Shown one piece after another: positions 21,237-34,211 of a DNA stretch of 34,211 bases. The notes under the pieces are model-generated. The model was given only the letters and a program-made list of their open reading frames with translations, searched no databases and had not been told where the DNA came from. This DNA is from FCB group bacterium. Its GTDB lineage: Bacteria; Zixibacteria; MSB-5A5; GN15; JAAZOE01. A program made the position numbers and the translations under genes. Numbering within the stretch: position 1 is the first letter of the stretch; every line of letters starts with the position of its first letter. Location: positions 1-34,211 of the forward strand of contig JAAEQF010000218.1 of the NCBI GenBank assembly GCA_024231695.1. The letters are read 5' to 3'.

Positions 21237-22112
21237 CTACCTCCTTACCGCGGCACATTCCGCAGGTTTATCGGAAAACATATCTTCTATATTCTCAAGC
21301 GAATCCATTACCCGGCTGACGGCCGTCTCCACGGTCTCCTTCGTAAGGTCCAAGCGTGACAACGACTCCTGACAGACATGATATTGCAAACCTTCCTTGC
21401 CCAAACCAAATCCTTCCATCATGCATAGAGCGTCGGCGGCGTGGACGATATCAATGGCGGATGTGATTTGTTCCGCTCCCTGGGGGTAGTGATGCCACCG
21501 AATGATGTCAATAATCGCTGGCGAAAACTTCCAGTGTTCGGCAATCAGTGCTCCGACCTCAGCATGATCGATACCCAGCAGCTTTCGTTCAGCCTCCTCA
21601 AAGGACAACTCATCGGTATCGACTATTTCCTGCAATTGGTCATAATATTCATCCACTGCGTCATGCAAAGCGATCTTGCCGATATCGTGGACCAACCCTC
21701 CGGTGAAAATCATACCGGTATCGCCAAGACGCAGGATTTTACCGAAATTTTCCGACATCAAGGCCACGGCCATGGAGTGCCTCCATAACTGTTCGGCCGT
21801 CAGTTCATACCCCTTGGCAAAGACATTGAGATTGGAGTAGATTAACGACGAAACGGCGATTTGAAAAATCCACTTTTTGCCGACACGAACACTCGCTTCA
21901 GTGATGGAACTGACCGGTTTGGAAAACCCCAAAAAGGCAGAGTTGGCCGCTTTGAGCACATTAGCCGTTAAGGCCGGATCGTACTGGATCACTCGGCCAA
22001 TCTCCGCATCGGCGGCATTGGGATCCTCAATAATGCTTAGCAGACGCTGGGTAATCGTCGGTAGAGTCGGGAATGAGGTAACCTTCTCGAATATCTGATC
22101 GCGGATATTCAT
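21237..22112 (-). CDS. HDOD-domain protein
   Basis: The protein has 291 residues spanning one HDOD domain. It opens with FPTLPTITQRLLSIIEDPNA and IGRVIQYDPALTANVLKAAN, which is diagnostic of the family. HDIGKIAL and WHHY are HD-like remnants, but the complete phosphohydrolase metal set is not evident. HDOD proteins commonly sit in signalling operons and affect c-di-GMP or motility signalling without proven catalysis. Its ATG overlaps the cheD stop (ATGA), so the two are translationally coupled. Exact role here unknown. Confidence 0.92.
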   Translation of the reverse strand: MNIRDQIFEKVTSFPTLPTITQRLLSIIEDPNAADAEIGRVIQYDPALTANVLKAANSAFLGFSKPVSSITEASVRVGKKWIFQIAVSSLIYSNLNVFAKGYELTAEQLWRHSMAVALMSENFGKILRLGDTGMIFTGGLVHDIGKIALHDAVDEYYDQLQEIVDTDELSFEEAERKLLGIDHAEVGALIAEHWKFSPAIIDIIRWHHYPQGAEQITSAIDIVHAADALCMMEGFGLGKEGLQYHVCQESLSRLDLTKETVETAVSRVMDSLENIEDMFSDKPAECAAVRR

Positions 22113-22588
22113 AATTCATTGAGTCCTTTCACCGATTTTACCGTGACTTTTCCCGTATCCAGATTTAGTCTGACCGTGCGGGCCATGCTACCGCCGACAT
22201 CCTCGGCAGCGATGAGAATATTGTTTTTCCAGAGCAGCTTCCTCAATACCAGATAATTTCTTTCCCCGATATTGAATATCTTATTTTTATCCATTAGTTG
22301 TGATCCGCCGACGACCTTGACAATCAATCGGTTTTTAACCGCTCCCATGGCAAACATCTGTTTTAACAGCTCCGGAATACCGGTGTCGGCAAACATGGCC
22401 GGTTTGGCCTTGGCCTTTTCTGGCGAGGTTTTAGACAGGGGAAGCATGTAATGAATCATCCCGCCGATTTTCGCTTCCGGATCGTAGGCCGTAACGCCGA
22501 TGCAGGAGCCGAGCGAAAACGTGACGATATCCATGCCTGGATCACGAGATACGCAAATGTCCGATATTCCAACCACCTTTTGCGGCAC
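22109..22588 (-). CDS. cheD: CheD chemoreceptor glutamine deamidase
   Basis: The protein has 159 residues from GTG 22588, with AAGGA eight bases upstream. The catalytic residues are visible: T23 (IVTFSLGSC), C29 (SLGSCIGVTAYD) and H46 (GGMIHYMLP). CheD deamidates receptor glutamines to glutamates and in many bacteria also binds CheC/CheX to raise phosphatase activity, which would fit the two CheX-type proteins here. It lies three bases after cheR and overlaps the HDOD gene by four. Confidence 0.95.
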   Translation of the reverse strand: MPQKVVGISDICVSRDPGMDIVTFSLGSCIGVTAYDPEAKIGGMIHYMLPLSKTSPEKAKAKPAMFADTGIPELLKQMFAMGAVKNRLIVKVVGGSQLMDKNKIFNIGERNYLVLRKLLWKNNILIAAEDVGGSMARTVRLNLDTGKVTVKSVKGLNEL

Positions 22589-22591
22589 TTT

Positions 22592-23425
22592 TTATTCCTT
22601 TACATAAATTGACGGTTTGACACATTTCATGTTCTTAACGATACCGGTCAGACTCTCGGCATGGCCGATTAACAGGTATCCGCCCGGCCTGATCAGGCGT
22701 TCAAATTCAGCCGCCAGCATGCGGCGCAGTTTATGATCGAAATAAATCATCACGTTGCGACAGATGATCATATCCAAATCGGGCTGAATCGGGTAGGGGG
22801 GAGTTATCAAATTGAACTGCCGGAAAAGAATCATCTTTTTAAGATCATTAACTACTGCGTACTGACTGCGGTTGCCCGCACTTTGCCGCGAGAAGTACTT
22901 ATTTCTGAGCGGCTTGGGCACCGGGAGCACGTTGTCTTCAGAGTAGATTCCTTTTTGGGCAGCGATCAGGACTTCCTGGTTAATATCCGTGGCCAGAATT
23001 TTCGTGTCAATGTTCGTTTGGCCGAAAACCTCTCGTAACTCAATTGCCAGAGTATAAGGTTCCTCGCCGGTCGAACTGGCCGCCGACCAGAAGCGGAAGG
23101 AACGCTTGCCTTTTTTCATCCAGTCGTTAACTACACTGCGAATAAATTTAAAATGCTCACTTTCCCGATAAAAACTGGTAGTGTTGGTCGAAACGGCATC
23201 GACCAGATACTGTAATTCCCGGCCGCTGGTATCATCCAGTATCAAACACAAATACTTGTCGTATTCGATCAGTCCGAGTTTTTGCATACGCTTGGCGATT
23301 CGCGCCTTTACCAACGAACCTTTGTTTTCCTTCAACATTATACCAGTCTGATCCTGGACCAATTGGCGGATGCGGTCGAGCGCACGATCCTGACTGCGAG
23401 ATGCAAGCGTGGCGGTTGGCGACAT
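22592..23425 (-). CDS. cheR: CheR chemotaxis protein methyltransferase
   Basis: The protein has 277 residues. The N-terminal all-helical domain is followed by NTTSFYRESEHF (81-92), the SAM-binding SAASSTGEEPYTLA (114-127), ATDINQEVL and the substrate region MIICRNVMIYFD, with GGYLLIGHAESL near the end. All are canonical CheR motifs. It methylates receptor glutamates using S-adenosylmethionine in the cytoplasm. No pentapeptide-binding insertion is evident. The start follows AGGGAA, and the gene lies nine bases after cheY. Confidence 0.97.
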   Translation of the reverse strand: MSPTATLASRSQDRALDRIRQLVQDQTGIMLKENKGSLVKARIAKRMQKLGLIEYDKYLCLILDDTSGRELQYLVDAVSTNTTSFYRESEHFKFIRSVVNDWMKKGKRSFRFWSAASSTGEEPYTLAIELREVFGQTNIDTKILATDINQEVLIAAQKGIYSEDNVLPVPKPLRNKYFSRQSAGNRSQYAVVNDLKKMILFRQFNLITPPYPIQPDLDMIICRNVMIYFDHKLRRMLAAEFERLIRPGGYLLIGHAESLTGIVKNMKCVKPSIYVKE

Positions 23426-23434
23426 TGATTTCCC

Positions 23435-23809
23435 TTACTCGGCCGGCTGGAGGAATTTCTCCAGCTTGGTTTGAATATCTTTGGGATTGAATGGTTTGAC
23501 CAGATAATCATTGGCGCCGGCTTTGATCGCTTCGATCACCTTTTGTTTTTCACCTTCCGTGGTCACCATGACTATCGGTGTCGAATTCTGACTCTTGCGA
23601 ATCGCCTCCACTGCCTCAATACCAGTCATAACCGGCATGTTCCAATCCATCAGGATGAGACCGATATCGCTTTGTTCTTGGGCGGCATCTACGGCTTCCT
23701 GACCGTTGGCGGCTTCCATAACTTCCAAACCATCGATGCCCAATTTGCTCAACGTGCCGGTTATAATTCGGCGCATGATCTGCGAATCATCAACCACTAA
23801 TACACGCAT
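23435..23809 (-). CDS. cheY: CheY response regulator
   Basis: The protein has 124 residues, a single receiver domain: acidic pocket D7/D8 (VLVVDDS), phospho-acceptor D55 (ILMDWNMPVMTG), threonines in VMVTTEGE and the lysine in NDYLVKPFNP. I chose ATG 23809 because AGGAGG lies seven bases upstream; the frame is open for eight more codons. It directly follows cheX, overlapping it by 20 bases, so the pair likely forms the main phosphorylated output and its phosphatase. Confidence 0.95.
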   Translation of the reverse strand: MRVLVVDDSQIMRRIITGTLSKLGIDGLEVMEAANGQEAVDAAQEQSDIGLILMDWNMPVMTGIEAVEAIRKSQNSTPIVMVTTEGEKQKVIEAIKAGANDYLVKPFNPKDIQTKLEKFLQPAE

Positions 23810-24290
23810 GAGTAGCCTCCTTTTCAGATACAATCACCGGCTTGATGGCCACCATCAGGGAAAAATCACCCAGTTCCGAATTGAAGGGGATAGCCAGGAA
23901 AACCGAGTCCTTGGCGTTGCAGACATTATAAATTGTTCCGCGTACTACCGTGGGAAGACTGAGATTGATGGAGTGGTCCTCGAATTTGGTTTTGGCGTTG
24001 CCGGCAATCATATTGACCAATTCGCCGACGCCGTCAATAATGGAGGCATCGACTTCCTCAAATTTGGCTCCCACCATGTGGCCGATCATATTCAAAGCCG
24101 TATTCACAGGCAGAGTCAGGGCCACAATACCCTGCACCGTCCCGGACAGACCGATAACCCCGATCAGAAATGAGTCGGTACTGTCCTTTTCGGCCAGACT
24201 GGGTTGGCCGGTGGTTATCTTGCAGTCCAACATGTTTTCAAACAATTCATGAACCGAATTGATAAATGGATTAATATCCTCAGCGTTCAT
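23790..24290 (-). CDS. cheX: CheX chemotaxis phosphatase
   Basis: The protein has 166 residues from ATG 24290; an ATG four codons upstream lies directly on the AAGGA motif and is less likely. The core helix IIDGVGELVNMIAGNAK contains the E90-x2-N93 active-site pair of CheX, which dephosphorylates CheY-P. The flanking strands (GTVQGIVALTLPVNTA and VFLAIPF) fit the family. It starts 14 bases after the FapA-like gene and runs into cheY. Confidence 0.92.
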   Translation of the reverse strand: MNAEDINPFINSVHELFENMLDCKITTGQPSLAEKDSTDSFLIGVIGLSGTVQGIVALTLPVNTALNMIGHMVGAKFEEVDASIIDGVGELVNMIAGNAKTKFEDHSINLSLPTVVRGTIYNVCNAKDSVFLAIPFNSELGDFSLMVAIKPVIVSEKEATHACISG

Positions 24291-24304
24291 TGATGGCACC
24301 ATCC

Positions 24305-25729
24305 TTATTCGTCGGGTTGAGATGACAGGACTATTTCATGTTTGGCCCGGTCCAAACTGGCCACAATCGGGCCGACCAGGGCATGTTCAACGACGTATTG
24401 CTGATCGCTGATACGCAGGGTTACTCCGGGATGGAGCAATTTGAGAATGCGTATCTTGGCGCTGCTGTTTTCAATTATGCGGGCATAGACAACTTTGTTG
24501 TCTGCCTCCAGACGGGTGACTTCTTCTTCACCTTCCATCATCTTAAATTGGATTTCCGTCAGCTTTTCCCTCTGCCCATGATCGAGAGTCTGAATATTTC
24601 TCGTCAAATGCCGTTGAACCTCATCCAGCTTCTTGATCATTCCCTTCACCCGCTTGATTTCCTTGCTGTTGGATTTCAGTTTGACTTGCAGATCACGATT
24701 CACCCCGGCGACTAGAAGTGTCGGAGTGTCTTGTCCGGCACCGGCCTCACCGACAGTAATACCCTTTGTGGCCGAGATTATGCCGCCGAATATCCGTCCC
24801 TCGTGGCAATTGACTTCGCCGATAGTATTAATTTTACTTTGCACTATTTCGGAATTGACCAGAATATTGCCTTTTGAATCGATCCCGGCATTCATGATAT
24901 ACTTAGCCAGCAAATCCCCGGCGACAGTAATTTTATGGGTGTCGTCGCCGTTTATTCCGCCTGGTGCGGTCAGGTTTCCGCCAGCCTTGAGGTTGGATGC
25001 ATAAACGACGCCGGAGGCATCAATGTCACCGGTGGCTTCGACCGAAAAATTCACTTCGATATCACCACTAATGATAACCTTGCCGTTATGATGAATATTA
25101 CCGGTATCGGCGCCGACGCCATCATTCAATCGCAAAATATGATCGACATCAAGTACTTTGCCGGTAAGACGAACCCGTCCCGAACATCCGGCTCGAAATC
25201 CGCCGACCTCTTCATCCCAGATAACATTGGGTCCCGATTTCAGATTTATTTCCCGGGGGAGGGGTACTTTAATGGCTTTGCCGAGAACATTGAGACCGTT
25301 CCGGCCGGGAATGCCCGGTGTTACCTTAGCCAGTAGCTGCCGCTTTTCAACCATCGATTCTTCGCTTTTTTCCTGAAAATTGATCCGCTTGTTTTCCGGG
25401 TCGATACGATAGCCAGCAATGAAAAAGTCGTCGGTCCAATCCAGTATGCCGTTCACCGGGGGTACGGCAGGTCGCCCGGTTATAATCGGGATATTCGTCG
25501 GCGTTTGTCCACTCGAGGAGTATTCCCGCAAGCCTGCCTTAACCGCCTCCAAATCAGGTTGCCCGATGGTTTTCATCCCCTCCAGCCGAGCGGTAAGAAT
25601 CTCAAGCGCCCGATCGTTTTCGGCAAACTCCGGTTCGCAGGAAAACAGCACTTGCATCTTGTCATCCGAGATTGTCAGTGTGAACTCGGCTTCGACGACA
25701 TTGGTCTTTTTATCTTTGGTTTGGACCAT
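24305..25729 (-). CDS. FapA (DUF342) family protein
   Basis: The protein has 474 residues. The N-terminal half contains the segment VTPGIPGRNGLNVLGKAI, typical of DUF342. The middle is a right-handed beta-helix of glycine-rich rungs (GKVIISGDIEVNFSVEATGD, GGNLTAPGGI, GNILVNSEIVQSKI). The C-terminal third is a coiled coil (about 340-420) followed by a small beta domain. FapA-type proteins affect flagellar assembly or polar targeting in some bacteria. Here it sits inside the chemotaxis block between the receptor and cheX, so placement of the chemotaxis apparatus is a reasonable guess. AGG lies just before the ATG. A strong hairpin precedes the gene. Confidence 0.88.
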   Translation of the reverse strand: MVQTKDKKTNVVEAEFTLTISDDKMQVLFSCEPEFAENDRALEILTARLEGMKTIGQPDLEAVKAGLREYSSSGQTPTNIPIITGRPAVPPVNGILDWTDDFFIAGYRIDPENKRINFQEKSEESMVEKRQLLAKVTPGIPGRNGLNVLGKAIKVPLPREINLKSGPNVIWDEEVGGFRAGCSGRVRLTGKVLDVDHILRLNDGVGADTGNIHHNGKVIISGDIEVNFSVEATGDIDASGVVYASNLKAGGNLTAPGGINGDDTHKITVAGDLLAKYIMNAGIDSKGNILVNSEIVQSKINTIGEVNCHEGRIFGGIISATKGITVGEAGAGQDTPTLLVAGVNRDLQVKLKSNSKEIKRVKGMIKKLDEVQRHLTRNIQTLDHGQREKLTEIQFKMMEGEEEVTRLEADNKVVYARIIENSSAKIRILKLLHPGVTLRISDQQYVVEHALVGPIVASLDRAKHEIVLSSQPDE

Positions 25730-25745
25730 AAAACCTCATTTAACC

Positions 25746-25774
25746 GGGATGCCGGATTAGCTGCCCGGCATCCC
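25746..25774 (-). terminator. Hairpin between the chemoreceptor and FapA-like genes
   Basis: GGGATGCCGG (25746-25755) and CCGGCATCCC (25765-25774) form a perfect 10-bp stem with a nine-base loop, ending 17 bases before the FapA-like start codon. On the minus strand no T-run follows directly. It may weaken read-through, protect the receptor mRNA end, or attenuate the downstream genes. Confidence 0.5.
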
Positions 25775-25853
25775 CGTTCGTCTGCGTACATTGCCGAAAA
25801 TCATAACTTCATCGGCAAAGAGCTCCCCCTTTTAGTTTATCGACCGTTGTTCA

Positions 25854-27902
25854 TTAAAAGGCGGCCATTTCATCTTCTTCCAGTGGCAGCACCTCTTCCG
25901 GATTGATGCTATTGCTGTTTCTCTCCTGAGTCACTACTTCGGTCTCGCCATTACTGAGATTATGACCTCCGGCAGAAACGGTTTTTGGTTTCGCCGGATT
26001 ACTAAGAGTTACAGCTTTGCCACCGATTTCCTGGAACGGTTGTATATTTGCTCGTTCCGCCCTCTCTGCACCTATAGTTTCCTGATGTGACCCACTGATA
26101 ATGGCAGTCAGATTGCTCACTATATGCATTAGTTGCTGTGATTGAGCGGATAGCTCCTGACTGGCCGAGGATGACTCTTCAGCGTTGGCAGCGTTCTGCT
26201 GAGTGACCTGATCCAATTGAGATATGGCCGTATTCAACTGTTCAATCCCCTGAGCCTGTTCACCGCTGGCGGCGGCAACCTCGCCGATCAGGCTGGTTAC
26301 TTTATTAATGCCGTCGGTGATATTCTTTAGGATGCCCATCAGTTCATCAGCTGTTCGGACGCCATCATCGGCGCTCTTCTGTGAACCCTCGATTAGAGCG
26401 CTTGTATCCTTGGCCGCCTCGGCGGATCTCATGGCCAGATTGCGGACTTCTTCGGCTACTACAGCAAAGCCTTTACCGGCTTCACCGGCGCGGGCGGCCT
26501 CAACCGCGGCATTGAGTGCCAACAGATTGGTCTGGAACGCAATCTCATCGATAACCTTGATAATCTTGGCAGTTTCGTCCGATGACTTCTTAACTTCAGT
26601 CATTGCTTCAGACATTTGAGTCATAGCACCAACACCCTGATCGGAACGCGCACTGGCTTCAGAAGCCAGCGTGTTTGCCTGGCGGGCATTTTCGGCGTTC
26701 TGACGAGTCATGCTCGACATTTCTTCCAAAGAGGAAGATGTTTCCTCCAGCGAAGAAGCTTGCTCCGTTGATCCCTCGGCCAGTGATTGACCGGCTGCTG
26801 ATACTTGTTCACTAGCGGAGGCCACTTGATCCGCACCGGCAGCCAATTGAGAGTTTATCTTGCTCAAAGCCTTCGTAATACCACGGGCAATGATTATGGC
26901 AATGACGATGCCGAAAATTGTTGCGAGAACACTAATCACAATCATGAGGATATTCGTCTGCCCGACTGTGCTCGATAGCTCCTGACGATTTTCGGCACTT
27001 TGCTCAACTGCCAATTTAACCATATTTGTCAACAGACCATTGACTTCCTCAAGATATTTCTTTGTTTCCGAAGAGTAAATATCTTTGGCCTTAGCATTAC
27101 CGGCTCCCAAAACTTCAGCCCTATCAATTATTGCGTGAAGAGCCTCTTGTGTCTTTATTTGAGTCGGTTCGGCGGTATTGACGAAAATCTCTAAAGTCTT
27201 AGCTTGTGCCTGAGTATCATCTCGATTCCAATTGTTCTGCATTTCTATGGCGGATTCGTGCAAATGACGATGAGGTGTTTTTATAGCATCGATCAAAGAT
27301 GCCAGCTCAGCATCGGATTCGGATAACTTCCGCCCTTTTTCTCCATAAATAAATTTGCCTAATCCGCAGCGATGATCGTCGGTTTCAACCGTAAATCGTT
27401 CCTTTCGTGAAGCAATGGTCGAGAGGCAAGAATTCGCCCACTTCTGGTGATCGACTTCCTTCTCGATTAGAAACTTGACTAATCCCGGGTCTACCTGGTG
27501 AAAAACTTCACCAATACTCACGGCCGTCTGGTGAAGCCTGTTATGTGGCTCCTCTACTTTGGCCAGAAGATCTTTCAATTCAGGTATGGCAGCTTCTGCT
27601 TGCTTGCGACCCTCACCATAATACCATTTCCCAAAGGCACATTTGTGGGGATCGGTTTGAACTGAGAGCTCAGTCATATGATCATCTAAAAAGAGATCGC
27701 TGACGGCTTTGGCCCAATTCAAATGATCAATTTCTCGCTGATGTAGGCTGATTGCTATCTCATCTGCACCAACGACTTGATCAGCATAACCCACGATCTT
27801 GTCAGTGCCGAGTAACCCGCTAACCACTGCTGTAATCAGCATGATTATCAAAAGTGCAAATCCGCCCCCGAGTTTTTTGGCGATACTCATTTGAGAAATC
27901 AT
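25854..27902 (-). CDS. Methyl-accepting chemotaxis protein with two CZB zinc-binding domains
   Basis: The protein has 682 residues from ATG 27902, supported by AGGAG ten bases upstream. Helix 1 (about 11-31) and helix 2 (about 318-340) frame a roughly 285-residue outside region with two tandem chemoreceptor zinc-binding (CZB) domains. The first has H60-x2-W63, C88-x2-G-x-W and H120/H124; the second has H152-x2-W155, C179-x2-G-x-F and H211/H215. Only a very short HAMP-like stretch follows helix 2. The cytoplasmic hairpin contains the canonical tip ([18 protein letters not shown], then [12 protein letters not shown]), and methylation-type Glu/Gln-rich helices lie on both sides. The tail is acidic. 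It likely senses zinc, redox or hypochlorous-type oxidants outside the membrane and signals through CheW/CheA. Confidence 0.95.
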
Positions 27903-27987
27903 TTCGGTGTCACTCCTGTATTGTGTTGCTTCAAAGCTTAATTCCACCTGTCGCTTAGCTCGAAGATTTTTGGTAACTCCTCTTATG

Positions 27988-28773
27988 CTAAGTTCCCATG
28001 ATCAGGCTGGAATTTCCTACTGTGGTTTCGGCTATGAGCTGACCCCATAGGCCGGAAACACCAGCGCGAACATAACCATTCTTGGTCCAGGAATGGTTCA
28101 CTTCCCACAAACCCTGAATTGAAGGTATACCGGCGTCCGTTCCATCATCTTCACCGTCTTTTACTTCATCAACGGCCAATGAGAAGGTCGGGGTGAGGTC
28201 GGTGCCGATGGTGCGGAAAAATCCGGATGCAAAAGTCATCGTAGTCTTTTCATTAGGCATTAAAGTTACCCAACCGGTAATCTGCGGCCGACGATATCCA
28301 GTATTTCCACATCCCCAAAGTACCGGGTAATTCAAGGTTGAAGGATTCAACGGAGAAATGATATCCCAGGTTTGCCCGGCGAGAAATTTGACGTTTCCCT
28401 TTTGAACCGAAAAATAGGCATGTCATAATTGCAGCATAGCCTTATTCTGGGCGACCGTGGCTCCACTAACACTGCCGTACAGGTCAAATTCAATTTTTCC
28501 GTTGATCTTTAGCTCGCCATATCCAGTGCCGTTAAGCTTGAGGCCCATTCTGGTTTGATTGGCGGTCATATTGAATTGTTCATCACCACCCTCATAATCA
28601 GGGAGGGGGACCCACATGGCAAAATTGCCATGACTGGTCAGATTTTGATCATAAGAGCCGTCAAGCTTAATATAACCATAAGGTTTGATCTCCATTGACG
28701 GGCTGTCATTTGCCTGAACTACCGGGCCCAGACATAAAAATAAGCCAACCAGGATTAATAAGATTGTTTTCAT
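27988..28773 (-). pseudogene. Broken porin-like gene (in-frame TGA, truncated)
   Basis: From ATG 28773 the frame encodes a signal peptide (KTILLILVGLFLCLGPVVQA) and MEIKPYGYIKLDGSYDQ, then strands ending NKAMLQL at a TGA (28423-28425). The same frame continues at once with HAYFSVQKGNVKFLAGQTWD, then IISPLNPSTLNYPVLWG and GYRRPQITGW, typical of DcaP-like porins, up to TAG at 27988-27990. Homologues have Arg where the TGA stands (LRHAY), so CGA to TGA is the simplest change. The product is also short, about 260 codons where porins of this type have well over 300, so the barrel would be incomplete. TGA is a normal stop elsewhere in this window. It lies between cheW and the chemoreceptor gene and may only be carried along. 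Read-through is possible but unsupported. Confidence 0.8.
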
Positions 28774-28869
28774 AGTTTCTCCCTTTCAGCCTTCTAAGAC
28801 TTGATTCGAACTAACATTTTGACCAGCCTCATAGGCCAGAGGTCACCTAAGGAAGTGCAAATCAGTTGT

Positions 28870-29442
28870 TTATTGAATTTCCTCTGCATATTCCTGTTCT
28901 TTGGTTGCTTCCTCAGGTTTTTGATCCATATTTTGAGCAATCTCGACGTCACTGGCAGATAAAACCTGATCTATATCCAAAAGGATTTTGACGCCGTCCT
29001 TGGTTTTTGCGAGTCCGATTATAAAATCACCGTTAAAGTTGTTTCCGATGACCGGCGCATCCTCAATATCACTCTCTTCAATGTCGAGAACCTCGGATAC
29101 GGCATCTACAAGTATGCCGATCTGAACGGGTGAGCCTTGAATCGAGGATTCAACGACAATAATACATGTCTCCTCGGTGTCTTCCTTTGTTTCCATTCCG
29201 AACTTTGCTCTTAAGTTGAGAACGGGAATGACCTTGCCTCGTAGGTTGATGACTCCACGGATATGATGAGGAGTCCGAGGGACATTGGTGATAGCCATCA
29301 ATCCAATGATTTCTCGTACGCGGAGTATGGCCAATCCGTATTCCTCGGCACCCAGGCAGAAAGTAAGGTATTTGCCCGCCCTGATTTCGACCGCTGTTTC
29401 AGCCCCATTGGGGACCTCGAGGATTTGTTGTTCATTTGTCAT
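28870..29442 (-). CDS. cheW: CheW coupling protein
   Basis: The protein has 190 residues from ATG 29442, which has GGAGG nine bases upstream; another ATG three codons earlier lies directly against that motif. Residues about 20-165 form a CheW/SH3-like domain: KYLTFCLGAEEYGLAILRVR, then EIIG, VPRTPHHIRGVINLRGKVIP, and later GLAKTKDGVKILLDID. It links chemoreceptors to CheA at the cytoplasmic membrane. The last 25 residues are an acidic, glutamate-rich tail without known function. It directly follows cheA, 32 bases apart. Confidence 0.95.
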   Translation of the reverse strand: MTNEQQILEVPNGAETAVEIRAGKYLTFCLGAEEYGLAILRVREIIGLMAITNVPRTPHHIRGVINLRGKVIPVLNLRAKFGMETKEDTEETCIIVVESSIQGSPVQIGILVDAVSEVLDIEESDIEDAPVIGNNFNGDFIIGLAKTKDGVKILLDIDQVLSASDVEIAQNMDQKPEEATKEQEYAEEIQ

Positions 29443-29474
29443 TTGATTCATCCTCCAAATTACTTTTTGCTTTG

Positions 29475-31811
29475 CTAAACTGTCATTGGATAGAGATCTT
29501 CTTGGCTACTAACAATCGTCGACTCGTCCTTATCGATTTCCGTATCAATTGAAATATCCAAGCCTTCCGATACGGAGGTTCCTTTTGCATTTTGATCGAA
29601 AGTAAAAGTTTTGGCCATTTCCGAAATACCGCTGATATCGATAATCAAACCGACATTGCCGTTAGCCAGGATTGCGCCGCCCGCGATCCATTTCTTATTT
29701 TGGAACAGCGGACCCAAATTCTTGATTACTGTCTGACGCTGGCCGTAAAGATGATCTACAACCAGTCCGATTTTGCGTTCCATATCCTCTACTATCACAA
29801 CCGTGCTATCGACATCATCCTTGGAGGAGAATGGAAGACCAAAGAGGCGACGGATCCGATGAAGTGGTATTACTTCTCCGCGCAACGTGATCATTTCGTG
29901 CAGTCCGTTGACGGTATGAATCATATCTGGACTAACGGGTAGGGACTTCACGACTGACAGAGTTGGGATAATCAGCTGTTCCTTGCCGATACCGACCAGC
30001 ATGCCATCAATGATCGCCAGAGTCAAAGGCAGCCTCATCGAGAATTTCGTTCCCTTGCCCGGTTCCGAATCGATTTCCAGATGGCCCCGCATGGCTTCAA
30101 TGTTCTTTTTAACCACGTCCATACCGACTCCACGTCCGGAAATGTCGGTGACCTTGCTGGCGGTGGAGAAGCCGGGAAGCATGATCAGATTATATATTTC
30201 CCGGTCGGTCAAGTCTTTATTATTTGCCAGCAGGCCCTTTTCCTTGGCCTTGGCCATGATTTTTTCCTTGTCCAGTCCCTTGCCGTCGTCTTCTATTTCC
30301 AGATAGATATTCCCGCCCTTGTGGAAAGCCCTGATCCAAACCGTACCGGCTTTGGTCTTGCCACTCGCCATCCTCTCCGTGGAGGTTTCCAAGCCGTGAT
30401 CGAGGGAATTACGGATCATATGCATCAGAGGATCGCCGATATTTTCAACGATTGAGCGATCGACTTCGGCGTCTTCGCCGGAAAGCTTCAGATCGACCTG
30501 CTTGCCCGATTTGCGGGCCAGATCGCGGACCGCCCGGGCCAGTTTACGGAAAGTAGCCTGAATCGGCACCAGCCGCATGGCCATACCCATTTCCTGCAGT
30601 TCACGGGTGATTTTATTAAGATGAGAAATATTCTTGTTTACTTTAGTTGAGGCCAGAGCCAGTATCTCTTCGTCCTGCCCAACCATCGATTCGGCGATGA
30701 CCATTTCACCGATAGTATCGACCAGCTTATCGAGCCGCTCGGTATCGATCTTGACCATTTCCTTGACGGCCGTGCCGACGGTTTTCCCTTTCTGATCCCG
30801 GAGGGCATGAACCACGGCCTTGGCCGTAACTTTGCCCTGCCTGACCAGCGTTTCACCGATTTTTTCATCGGACGATTTTTTGTGCTTGAGTGCCTCTTCG
30901 ATTTCTCGCTGGCTGACGGCTCCCATCTCGACCAATTTGTCACCAACCCGCTGCGGCGTATTGTCTTCAAACATATCGTCATCATCACCATTCCCGGCCT
31001 TGGCGATTAATTGGCGCAACTGTGAAACATGTTCTGAGACGATATCGGCGCTGTCAAATGATCCGCCGTCGTTTAAAACTTCCTCGACACCCTTGAGCAG
31101 AGCGCGCATGGCGTCTATCGATTCAAAAACGGCGTCGGCGATCCGGTCGGCGATGATGACTGTCTCTTGGCGGGCCAGATCGAGCAGCGTTTCCGATTCG
31201 TGAGCCAGCATGGATATCGGGGTCAATTCCATAAATCCGGCGGCTCCCTTGATGGTGTGGAAACTGCGGAAAATGGCGTCGATGGCCTCTTTGTTCCGGG
31301 GATCGGTTTCCAGATCCATCAACATCTGTTCGGCCGTGGCGCAATGTTCCTCGGCTTCGGAAATAAACTCGGCCACCAGTGAGGAGTCGTTACCCTCAAG
31401 CGATAATCTTAGATCGTTTTCACCCAGCGAATTGCATTCGGCGGCTGGTTCCTCCGGCATCGGTTCGCCGGGCAAATCGGCTTCAGGCGTATCCTCTTTG
31501 ACGGACAGGTTTAGAATGGCGGTAGGGAAAGAAACTTCTTCGGGTTCGCGTTTGTCACGGATTATTCCCTGCAGGCCGGTGACCGCACCGTTGAGCATTT
31601 TCAGAATCGATTCCGGATCATCAACCTCGCGAAGAATTATTTTCTCAACATGATTAGCGCAGGATTGAGCCACGACTGAAGCCGTTGGCGATATTTCGTC
31701 GGCCTGAATTGAAAGTTGACTGAATGCCTCATGTAGTCCGGCCAGCGCCTGCATATCATCCGGGATGATTAATATTAAATCGGCGGCAATTCTATCAAGT
31801 ATTTTTTCCAT
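29475..31811 (-). CDS. cheA: CheA histidine kinase with an MshEN-like module
   Basis: The protein has about 778 residues. ATG 31811 is used; a GTG four codons upstream (31823) is the alternative, and neither has a strong ribosome-binding site. After a 140-residue N-terminal region comes the Hpt (P1) domain with phospho-acceptor H185 (AIFRSFHTIKGAAGFMEL). Residues about 287-342 hold two MshEN/GspE-N-like half-repeats (QRVGDKLVEMGAVSQREIEE and KIGETLVRQGKVTAKAVVHA), and no P2 CheY-binding domain is recognisable. The dimerisation helices follow, then the ATPase with N-box HMIRNSLDHGLE, DDGKGLD and GRGVGMDVV, and a C-terminal CheW-like P5 domain. It autophosphorylates and passes phosphate to CheY and CheB. 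It is the first gene of the block. Confidence 0.96.
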   Translation of the reverse strand: MEKILDRIAADLILIIPDDMQALAGLHEAFSQLSIQADEISPTASVVAQSCANHVEKIILREVDDPESILKMLNGAVTGLQGIIRDKREPEEVSFPTAILNLSVKEDTPEADLPGEPMPEEPAAECNSLGENDLRLSLEGNDSSLVAEFISEAEEHCATAEQMLMDLETDPRNKEAIDAIFRSFHTIKGAAGFMELTPISMLAHESETLLDLARQETVIIADRIADAVFESIDAMRALLKGVEEVLNDGGSFDSADIVSEHVSQLRQLIAKAGNGDDDDMFEDNTPQRVGDKLVEMGAVSQREIEEALKHKKSSDEKIGETLVRQGKVTAKAVVHALRDQKGKTVGTAVKEMVKIDTERLDKLVDTIGEMVIAESMVGQDEEILALASTKVNKNISHLNKITRELQEMGMAMRLVPIQATFRKLARAVRDLARKSGKQVDLKLSGEDAEVDRSIVENIGDPLMHMIRNSLDHGLETSTERMASGKTKAGTVWIRAFHKGGNIYLEIEDDGKGLDKEKIMAKAKEKGLLANNKDLTDREIYNLIMLPGFSTASKVTDISGRGVGMDVVKKNIEAMRGHLEIDSEPGKGTKFSMRLPLTLAIIDGMLVGIGKEQLIIPTLSVVKSLPVSPDMIHTVNGLHEMITLRGEVIPLHRIRRLFGLPFSSKDDVDSTVVIVEDMERKIGLVVDHLYGQRQTVIKNLGPLFQNKKWIAGGAILANGNVGLIIDISGISEMAKTFTFDQNAKGTSVSEGLDISIDTEIDKDESTIVSSQEDLYPMTV

Positions 31812-31823
31812 TATGTCGGTCAC

Positions 31824-32350: not shown

Positions 32351-33412
32351 ATGGCGAAAAATATCGTTATTTTTTCCGATGGTACCGGGCAGGATGGGGG
32401 CGAAGGGTACAGCACTAATGTTTACAAACTTTTCAACATGATCGAGAACAGGACAAATAATCAGATTGCCTTCTACGATCGGGGACTGGGGACCGGCTGG
32501 AGAAAGATATCCGGCAACGCTTTCGGCGTCGGCATCTCAAAGAACGTTAGAGATTGTTACCAGTTCCTCTTTGAAAATTTCCAGGCCGATGACCGTGTTT
32601 TTCTTTTCGGCTTCAGTCGTGGAGCCTTTACTGTCCGATCGCTGTCCGGCTTTGTCGATCTGATCGGAATATTACCCAAATCCCGACCGGAGTTGATCAA
32701 AAAGGCTTACAAAATTTATAAAATGAAAGATCGTACAGAGAAAGAGCGCAAGAAGAAAAACGACAAGCTCACACAATTTAAAAATGCGCACCACCCCATG
32801 AACTGTACTATCGAATTCATAGGTGTTTGGGATACGGTCAGAGCTCTGGGCGTACCTTTTAAAGCGTTGGAAATAATAAACCCGTTCAAGAACAAATTTC
32901 ACAATGCCAAACTCTGTAAAAACGTCCTTTGCGGCTGTCATGCCCTGTCCATCGATGATGAGCGCCGGGTTTTTCACCCGACTCTCTGGGATGAAAAGAA
33001 TAAAGATGATCGGCAGGAAATTTCTCAGGTCTGGTTTGCCGGTGTGCACACTGATGTCGGCGGCGGATACCCGGAACCGGGATTGTCCGATATAACCCTG
33101 AAGTGGATGGTGGCCAAGGCCGAAGCCAAAAAATTGCTTATCTATCCCAAACATGAAATCGTCATCGATCCGAATCCGAACGATAAAATGCATAATCCGT
33201 TTAAAAAGTGGGGGCGGATGTATCGCCGGAAAGTTAGAAATTGCGACGCCCTGACCACAAAGCCGGTCATTCATCCCAGTGTGCTGGAACGCGATTTGGA
33301 TGATAAAAACAAACCGGGCAGTAAATACAAGCCGTGGATTCTTTCCTCTGAGTATGATATCGAACCCCAGCCGGTCACTGCCGCGGCCGAAAAAGAGACG
33401 GTTCACGAATAA
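32351..33412 (+). CDS. DUF2235 (Tle1-like) alpha/beta-hydrolase family protein
   Basis: The protein has 353 residues with no signal peptide and no membrane helix. It opens KNIVIFSDGTGQD, the hallmark start of DUF2235. The nucleophile elbow is GFSRGAFT with S89. D161 (GVWDTVRALG) and H233 (GVHTDVGGGYPE) complete a plausible Ser-Asp-His set. Residues 115-150 are a lysine-rich insertion. The family includes the Tle1 phospholipase effectors of type VI secretion as well as many uncharacterised stand-alone enzymes. No Hcp, VgrG or immunity gene is near, so an effector role is not supported here. Esterase or phospholipase activity is inferred. AGGAGG lies two bases before the ATG. It stands alone, divergent from cheA and followed by the hairpin array. 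Confidence 0.88.
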   Translation: MAKNIVIFSDGTGQDGGEGYSTNVYKLFNMIENRTNNQIAFYDRGLGTGWRKISGNAFGVGISKNVRDCYQFLFENFQADDRVFLFGFSRGAFTVRSLSGFVDLIGILPKSRPELIKKAYKIYKMKDRTEKERKKKNDKLTQFKNAHHPMNCTIEFIGVWDTVRALGVPFKALEIINPFKNKFHNAKLCKNVLCGCHALSIDDERRVFHPTLWDEKNKDDRQEISQVWFAGVHTDVGGGYPEPGLSDITLKWMVAKAEAKKLLIYPKHEIVIDPNPNDKMHNPFKKWGRMYRRKVRNCDALTTKPVIHPSVLERDLDDKNKPGSKYKPWILSSEYDIEPQPVTAAAEKETVHE

Positions 33413-33419
33413 CGGGGCA

Positions 33420-33471
33420 CAGGCGGTGCCTGTTTTTGGCTGTCGGTGGCGAAGCCACTTTTTGGCTGTCG
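33420..33471 (+). repeat. Tandem hairpin-tail modules (copies 1 and 2)
   Basis: Two 26-base modules lie head to tail. Each is a 13-base hairpin (CAGGC-GGT-GCCTG, then GTGGC-GAA-GCCAC) followed by the identical 13-base tail TTTTTGGCTGTCG (33433-33445 and 33459-33471). The stems differ in sequence but are fully paired, while the tails are identical. Hairpin plus T5 also resembles an intrinsic terminator and lies just eight bases after the hydrolase stop. Confidence 0.8.
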
Positions 33472-33676
33472 CCAGTATGATCCAAGCATAGAAACACGCG
33501 ATGCGTGTGGGTTCGATTCGGAAAGCCAAAAAAGCCAAATCTCTCGTAAGTGAAAGCAGTGTAGTGAGTAGGGCTTTGGGTTCGGTTTGGGTTCGCTCAT
33601 GTTTTAGCCGATCAGACATTGTTTAGACCTCGCATATATTTATAAGGCAGGAACCCACCGCAACGCGGTGGGCCAC

Positions 33677-33766
33677 ACACACAGGTGTGTTGTTGGTTGT
33701 CGGTGGCGGAGCCACTTTTTGGCTGTCGCGTGAATGACCACAGGCGGTGCCTGTTTTTGGCTGTTG
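33677..33766 (+). repeat. Hairpin-tail modules (copies 3 to 5)
   Basis: ACACAC-AG-GTGTGT (33677-33690) is followed by the degenerate tail TGTTGGTTGTCG. Then GTGGC-GGA-GCCAC (33703-33715) with the exact tail TTTTTGGCTGTCG (33716-33728) and, after a 12-base gap, CAGGC-GGT-GCCTG (33741-33753) with TTTTTGGCTGTTG. The last hairpin is identical to copy 1. A sixth, more decayed copy (GCGGC-ATC-GCCGC with TTTTTGACTGACG) lies at 33977-34002. Confidence 0.75.
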
Positions 33767-34211
33767 CGTGGACGACCATGAATTTCTTCCTCGTAAGTCA
33801 TACACTGGATTAACCGCTCATCCTTCTATATTATTATCGTTTTTAGGATTATGGGAAATTTGGGTTTGGTTGCTCATTTTTAGGGGGTCCCCAAGTTTTT
33901 GCTCCTTCTCTTTTGCCTTGCGGTGTCTCTGAAGGGAGTGTAAAGTCCTCAGGGTACGGTACATCTGGCGGTCGAGGCGGCATCGCCGCTTTTTGACTGA
34001 CGTCGGGATGACCATAATTCCAATTGTGAGGCAAGCGAAGCGAGACGAACCAAAAGCAGGCTCCGCCTGCCGGTTGATTTTTGGGCGTTTTGGCGGTTGG
34101 CCGCCAGTTTCTTTTCGGACATACGCATAGCTAACTCCGCAGGTTAGAGTTTCACATTAGCGGGCGTATTCGGAATTTGTAGTGGTTTTGTGGGGGAATT
34201 GCAATTCAATA

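Follow-up and report, generated by a model that had tools for sequence, protein, structure and literature searches.

The question raised by this locus is what kind of element is formed by short palindromes whose stems vary in sequence and stay paired while a common tail follows them, and which process keeps the two arms complementary. The locus lies in a contig of 34,211 nucleotides from an FCB group bacterium of the Zixibacteria, and the whole of this stretch is referred to here as the window. Past the stop codon of a gene for a Tle1-like phospholipase (32351-33412, with a match to PF09994), 800 bases run to the contig end. The original prediction counted about nine or ten palindromes in this gene-free DNA, six of them tailed, and that description holds: ten palindromes are present, of which six are units made of a hairpin and a tail and four are of other kinds (Table 1).

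The array at the contig end

The six units span 33420-34013, lie head-to-tail and are all on the + strand; because the region coincides with the contig end, the array may extend further. The window has 9 matches to the tail with at most two mismatches, where chance would give 1.1, and none of 100 shuffles reaches 9, while Rfam gave no match at E<=1 across 33300-34211. The left arm of unit 3 overlaps the end of a neighbouring REP. Another dispersed module, of the GGGTTTGGTTGCTCATTTTTA type (GCTCATTTTTAAAG in the related genome G001, where it has many copies), is found at 33575-33605 and 33859-33884 of the window and often lies just 5' of units. The genes at 21237-31823 are of the chemotaxis type (CheA-, CheR- and MCP-like, FapA, HDOD), and the Tle1-like alpha/beta hydrolase, a phospholipase of the T6SS type, immediately precedes the array.

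Table 1. Palindromes in the gene-free contig end, with positions in the window
Feature	Position	Strand	Description
Unit 1	33420-33445	+	Hairpin CAGGC-GGT-GCCTG 33420-33432; tail TTTTTGGCTGTCG 33433-33445
Unit 2	33446-33482	+	Hairpin GTGGC-GAA-GCCAC 33446-33458; tail TTTTTGGCTGTCG 33459-33471, continuation CCAGTATGATC; head-to-tail with unit 1
Palindrome CACGCGATGCGTG	33495-33507		Not a unit
Classic GTRG-tagged REP	33647-33677	-	GTGG + CCCACC...GGTGGG; neighbour in the array, not a unit
Unit 3	33675-33702	+	Hairpin ACACAC-ACAG-GTGTGT 33675-33690; degenerate tail TTGTTGGTTGTCG 33690-33702
Unit 4	33703-33739	+	Hairpin GTGGC-GGA-GCCAC 33703-33715; tail TTTTTGGCTGTCGCGTGAATGACC, 13-base part 33716-33728
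Unit 5	33741-33777	+	Hairpin CAGGC-GGT-GCCTG 33741-33753; tail TTTTTGGCTGTTGCGTGGACGACC, with TTTTTGGCTGTTG at 33754-33766
Unit 6	33977-34013	+	Hairpin GCGGC-ATC-GCCGC 33977-33989; tail TTTTTGACTGACGTCGGGATGACC, with TTTTTGACTGACG at 33990-34002; second tail sub-family
Related hairpin	34026-34071	-	Hairpin CAGGC-GGA-GCCTG 34055-34071, then a different constant tail, TTTTGGTTCGTCTCGCTTCGCTTGCCTCAC
Palindrome TTGGCGGTTGGCCGCCAG	34090-34107		Not a unit

Anatomy of the unit

The tail had been described as 13 constant bases, which was right as to its constancy and too short as to its length, since conservation continues to about 24-30 nt (TTTTTGGCTGTCGCGNGGATGACCnGAAT). In a 960-kb sample from three genomes it reads TTTTTGGCTGTCGC-GNGG-ATGA(C/T)C-nGAAT before fading, and a sub-family has the form GACTGTCGTGTG.ATGACC. 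Five T residues directly follow the hairpin in nearly all copies, and upstream of the stem no base is conserved among the first units of arrays in the same sample. The hairpins are of 5 bp, with 129 of 133 perfect stems having 5 or 6 bp, and their loops are mostly of 3 nt in this genome and of 4 nt (purines) in G001, whereas those of G006 are mostly GGGAT-N3-ATCCC. The stems had been said to pair around a GC-N3-GC core; the pairing stands, but the core is instead GGC-N3-GCC and is lacking in the ACACAC unit. Terminal inverted repeats, a trait of MITEs, are absent, each unit having a single 13-nt hairpin, placed at one of its ends, and an unconserved upstream side. A second hairpin within the tail (GGCTGTC/GATGACC or NNGG-ATGA-CCNN) was considered and found to be unsupported, with no covariation.

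Hairpins of the same kind are followed elsewhere by other constant tails, such as TTTTGGTTCG..CTCGCTTCGCTTGCCTCAC (locus L094, 5591-5690) and TTTTTTTGCTCGATCGCTGGCGCTATCTCA in a tandem array (L087, near 12659), as if heads and tails were modular. Several 87-nt tandem repeats in G001 (L112, 13035-13513) contain the unit, with the stem CTTGC-AAAA-GCAAG, together with a module GTTCTATATTTGTCCCAACTTCTCC, which is also found in the present genome beside tRNA-Ser (L005, L006, L011).

Distribution of the unit

The material consists of MAGs, one per species. The host assembly is a 5.14-Mb MAG of 1001 contigs, 96% complete and 8% contaminated, so that a few contigs may be foreign to the host; its relatives show the unit family to be native. 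The census is based on searches and on the 960-kb sample, which was centred on known copies. A whole-genome search for copies had been proposed with the original prediction, which named confinement to this locus as evidence against it, and many copies were found. The exact 13-mer tail occurs 34 times in this genome and 100 times at one mismatch or fewer (25 for the reversed pattern, used as control, at one mismatch), and a covariance model built from 30 copies recovered at least 146 copies among 150 candidates scored.

Across the genomes of the GTDB family, exact tails number 34, 99, 58, 2, 1, 0 and 0, the counts of 99 and 58 belonging to two other genera, and model matches at E<=0.001, with E-values that are rough owing to a shortened calibration, number 102, 110, 56, 16, 5, 1 and 0. 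G004 and G005 hold few copies; these are true units and have other hairpins again. Every other family among 133 genomes of the class is at control level for the exact tail, and 53 genomes from other families of the order have 0-1 model matches at the same threshold. The unit is therefore common to several genera of one Candidatus Zixiibacteriota family and at background in the other families tested. In a named scan of about 85,000 species, the extended tail was found only in Candidatus Zixiibacteriota MAGs (CSMAG_807 and RS_7_36, the copy in the latter being identical to one of G004), besides a Streptococcus sanguinis locus (two records, one copy each) that has no perfect hairpin and was taken as chance. 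No viral contig carries the tail pattern, and viral carriage was rejected on this ground.

Pairing and covariation of the stems

To avoid selecting for hairpins, units were picked on the tail alone. A perfect Watson-Crick stem of at least 5 bp abuts the T-run in 77% of 172 such units, compared with 1.2% in shuffled sequence and 2.1% where T5 occurs elsewhere, and an exchange of right arms among the units of a genome leaves 20% (maximum 32%); with a looser tail threshold, 167 of 236 units pair at 5/5 positions and 30 at 4/5. The three genomes have 11, 15 and 2 distinct perfect stems, some of them in common, and more than 20 overall. Across the 150 copies aligned to the model, changes are two-sided in 193 cells and one-sided in 6, and slid controls collapse. 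This alignment leans towards structure, and the first one, built without structure, agrees for the stem; the cells overcount events, as four outer dinucleotides (CA, GT, CC and GC) cover most units. The compensating stems of the original prediction are thus confirmed, with covariation far above chance, and pairing at chance level, another outcome that it had named as adverse, is excluded. The dispersal of the unit also argues against the remaining one, a decayed coding gene. Chance hairpins multiplied by local tandem duplication at one locus, a reading that the adjacent and similar units 1 and 2, and likewise 3 and 4, might have suggested, is refuted by these pairing values and by dispersed copies in several genera, and keeps practically no probability.

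Selection on a fold in RNA, which had been proposed for the paired stems beside one in single-stranded DNA, is not singled out: mispairs of the G-T kind (19) are about as frequent as those of the A-C kind (17), and RNA-specific selection was rejected for this lack of a G-T excess. Template switching during replication could likewise produce paired stem changes. Under this explanation, the stems would be altered by switching between the two arms (quasipalindrome correction) and covariation would be a product of mutation, a view that is compatible with a mobile repeat. The mechanism has been published for RNA genes (PMC8794818), and several observations agree with it: intermediates between two-sided changes are nearly absent, G-T pairs show no excess, hairpins with hybrid arms such as CAGGC/GCCAC occur, and in G001 the stem type is linked neither to the loop nor to most tail positions. 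In addition, the rare stem TAGGC/GCCTA starts at TAG in both cases, and CCATT/AATGG uses a tRNA-encoded CCA. On the other hand, the statistical link between stem and flank vanished once arrays and duplicated flanks were removed, and the four outer dinucleotides that cover most units resemble old founder types. Template switching is regarded as a serious rival account of where the covariation comes from, at a fairly low probability. The related idea that a hairpin arm derives from the insertion target was set aside for the same loss of the stem-flank link; its suggestive examples are isolated ones (the CCA of tRNA-Tyr, a TAG stop codon and the CCACA end of a REP).

Arrays, orientation and gene ends

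Neighbouring units are direct in 78 of 81 pairs and inverted in 3, with spacing peaks at 26-29 bp, and 49 of 53 multi-unit clusters lie on a single strand. Copies are mostly intergenic. With genes defined as long ORFs called by script, clusters in gaps between same-direction genes are co-directional with the genes at 27:11 (p 0.014); 26% of clusters lie in convergent gaps, compared with 17% of random intergenic sites (p 0.049). A replication-strand preference was discarded (units 31:14, but genes likewise 202:111).

At the orthologous tRNA-Tyr site, units are present or absent by genus: they directly follow the tRNA in this genome (G000) and in G001, with differing hairpins, and are missing in G002, G003, G004 and G006, of which G003 and G004 have ordinary terminators there. 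In G001 the hairpin after tRNA-Tyr is CCATT-ACA-AATGG, with the tRNA-encoded CCA as its left arm (L111, 7708-7828; L188, downstream of tRNA-Tyr), and G000 differs at this site in both hairpin and tail sub-family.

These mild biases of orientation and gene ends fit terminator-like behaviour without proving it, and the tandem terminators of the original prediction are compatible with the data in the same unproven sense. A stronger form of this idea holds that units are chiefly transcription terminators that spread as sequence-varied cassettes, with the tail as a downstream element or a passenger. The T-run directly after the hairpin, the 11 terminator-like sites of the window against 1.4 in shuffles, the cluster orientations and convergent gaps, and the position right after tRNA-Tyr, where relatives have ordinary terminators, all argue for it. 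Nevertheless, many copies are remote from any gene end or oppositely oriented, at least 19 constant bases past the T-run would be unnecessary, the stem shows none of the tolerance for G-U pairs that RNA would be expected to have, and arrays of up to six would be redundant, which makes termination an unlikely main role.

Y1 transposases and resident REPs

The look-up for a Y1_Tnp/RAYT gene proposed with the original prediction was positive, as this genome has 11 Y1_Tnp matches, most of them RAYT-like genes located between inverted copies of hairpin repeats of their own. Several of these flanking repeats are clearly GTRG-tagged (e.g. GTGGCCCACC...GGTGGGTT), and all differ from the unit. The REP in the window belongs to a kind that flanks a resident RAYT gene on contig C786 and has 20 copies in the genome, the reversed pattern having 0. 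Several different RAYT/REP pairs per genome are found in Zixibacteria (L084, L086, L080, L081, L085), and these classic modules look active in the genomes where the unit is found.

The unit has no linked transposase, which counts against a mobile repeat. At 25 Y1 loci, 11 in this genome and 14, a subset of all those in the relatives, read in G001, G002, G003, G004 and G006, the repeats at the ends are others, and no RAYT is flanked by the unit; units sometimes lie beside REPs or RAYT modules, never as the inverted ends of the inspected ones. Y1 gene counts from G000 to G006 (11, 10, 4, 5, 9, 0 and 7) do not track unit counts, and a survey of 849 ORFs gave no other gene family that recurs next to units.

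Comparison with known palindromic repeats

Most REPs have been sorted into the GTAG and CGTC superfamilies (Di Nocera et al., PMC3733652), RAYT genes are stated always to lie between two inverted REPs (Nunvar et al., PMC2817692), and Marinomonas REPs have perfect palindromes of 5 bp (PMC8266576). The unit resembles GTAG REPs, BIMEs and REPINs with their RAYT (TnpA-REP) (PMC3733652, PMC2817692, PMC3116915) in being an extragenic palindrome within the 20-40 bp of the GTAG type, with more than 100 copies and variable paired stems, in its clusters and preference for same-direction and convergent gaps, and in the presence of RAYTs in the same genome. It differs in lacking the GTAG tag 5' of the stem (no GTRG tetranucleotide stands at the 5' foot, and on the other strand it is the A-run of the tail that precedes the hairpin), in its long constant 3' tail, in its direct neighbours instead of predominantly inverted (head-head) dimers, and in the failure to find a RAYT gene that it flanks. 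CGTC-tagged REPs, including dRS3 and RPE-4/6 (PMC3733652), are likewise palindromic with no dedicated transposase known, but they have stems of 8-9 bp, loops of 4-5, a tag at the stem foot, a CCA end and mostly inverted dimers, in contrast to the 5-bp stems, T-run, long tail and direct arrays of the unit. TGTCG before the stem, the nearest approach to a CGTC/TGTC tag, occurs only within arrays and there belongs to the tail of the preceding unit.

Intrinsic (Rho-independent) terminators share the GC-rich hairpin with T5 directly after it; the unit differs as a dispersed family with a conserved tail past the T-run, in both orientations and also far from gene ends. Organellar double-hairpin elements are palindromic mobile elements with exchangeable stems, in which sequence varies and pairing is kept, while the unit is bacterial, with a single hairpin, a constant tail and head-to-tail arrays.

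Owing to the missing tag, the orientation of its neighbours and the lack of RAYT linkage, the unit is not filed as a GTAG or a CGTC REP. That it is the ordinary REP of a resident RAYT, a GTAG superfamily member, is in agreement with the RAYT-like genes and the highly repeated short palindromes; the lack of conservation 5' of the stem in first units, the other REPs at the ends of inspected RAYTs and the direct neighbours make this very improbable. The REP/RAYT-type element proposed originally is thus retained in its REP-like character and given up as the REP of a RAYT. As far as its sequence can tell, the unit works like a REP.

A model for the unit

The unit is probably a lineage-specific, non-autonomous REP-like mobile repeat for which no mobiliser has been found yet, a RAYT acting in trans being included in this reading. 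No exact empty or filled site with defined ends was obtained, there being one MAG per species, so it is the dispersal that points to mobility; the presence or absence of units by genus at the tRNA-Tyr site was counted in its favour. The unit is composed of a 5-bp hairpin, free in sequence and kept in pairing, a T-run and a non-pairing constant tail of about 19-25 nt. A putative protein would recognise the shape of the hairpin and the sequence of the tail, probably within one single strand, and such recognition would maintain pairing with a free stem sequence and a constant tail. This protein would copy or move units into gene-free DNA, and its best candidate is an enzyme of the Y1/HUH type, be it a resident RAYT in trans or an enzyme not found. 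Tandem duplication, or insertion of a unit next to an existing one, may lengthen the head-to-tail arrays, whose period is 26-29 bp, and copies pointing with the upstream gene may be tolerated best if the hairpin and T5 can end transcription.

A bolder proposal makes the unit a mobile palindrome of a third kind, next to the GTAG and CGTC REPs, in which an undescribed enzyme recognises hairpin shape and a long single-stranded tail, arrays are one-directional, and stems are re-made by template switching at or after insertion. It is considered speculative and rather improbable; if it were true, covariation would record replication and not selection.

Implications

A tag of 4 bases defines each of the two REP superfamilies recognised so far, and an enzyme is known for just one. 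The tagless layout, long constant tail and direct arrays of the unit pose the question of which protein reads it. No report of such repeats in the phylum was found in the literature searched, and the unit appears to represent a new branch among the REP-type repeats already known. The REP tests that it failed are also a caution that a palindrome in a RAYT-bearing genome need not be a RAYT substrate. Two genomes with over 100 copies apiece, more than 20 stems and one tail provide natural replicates, well suited to testing whether selection or template switching is the source of hairpin covariation.
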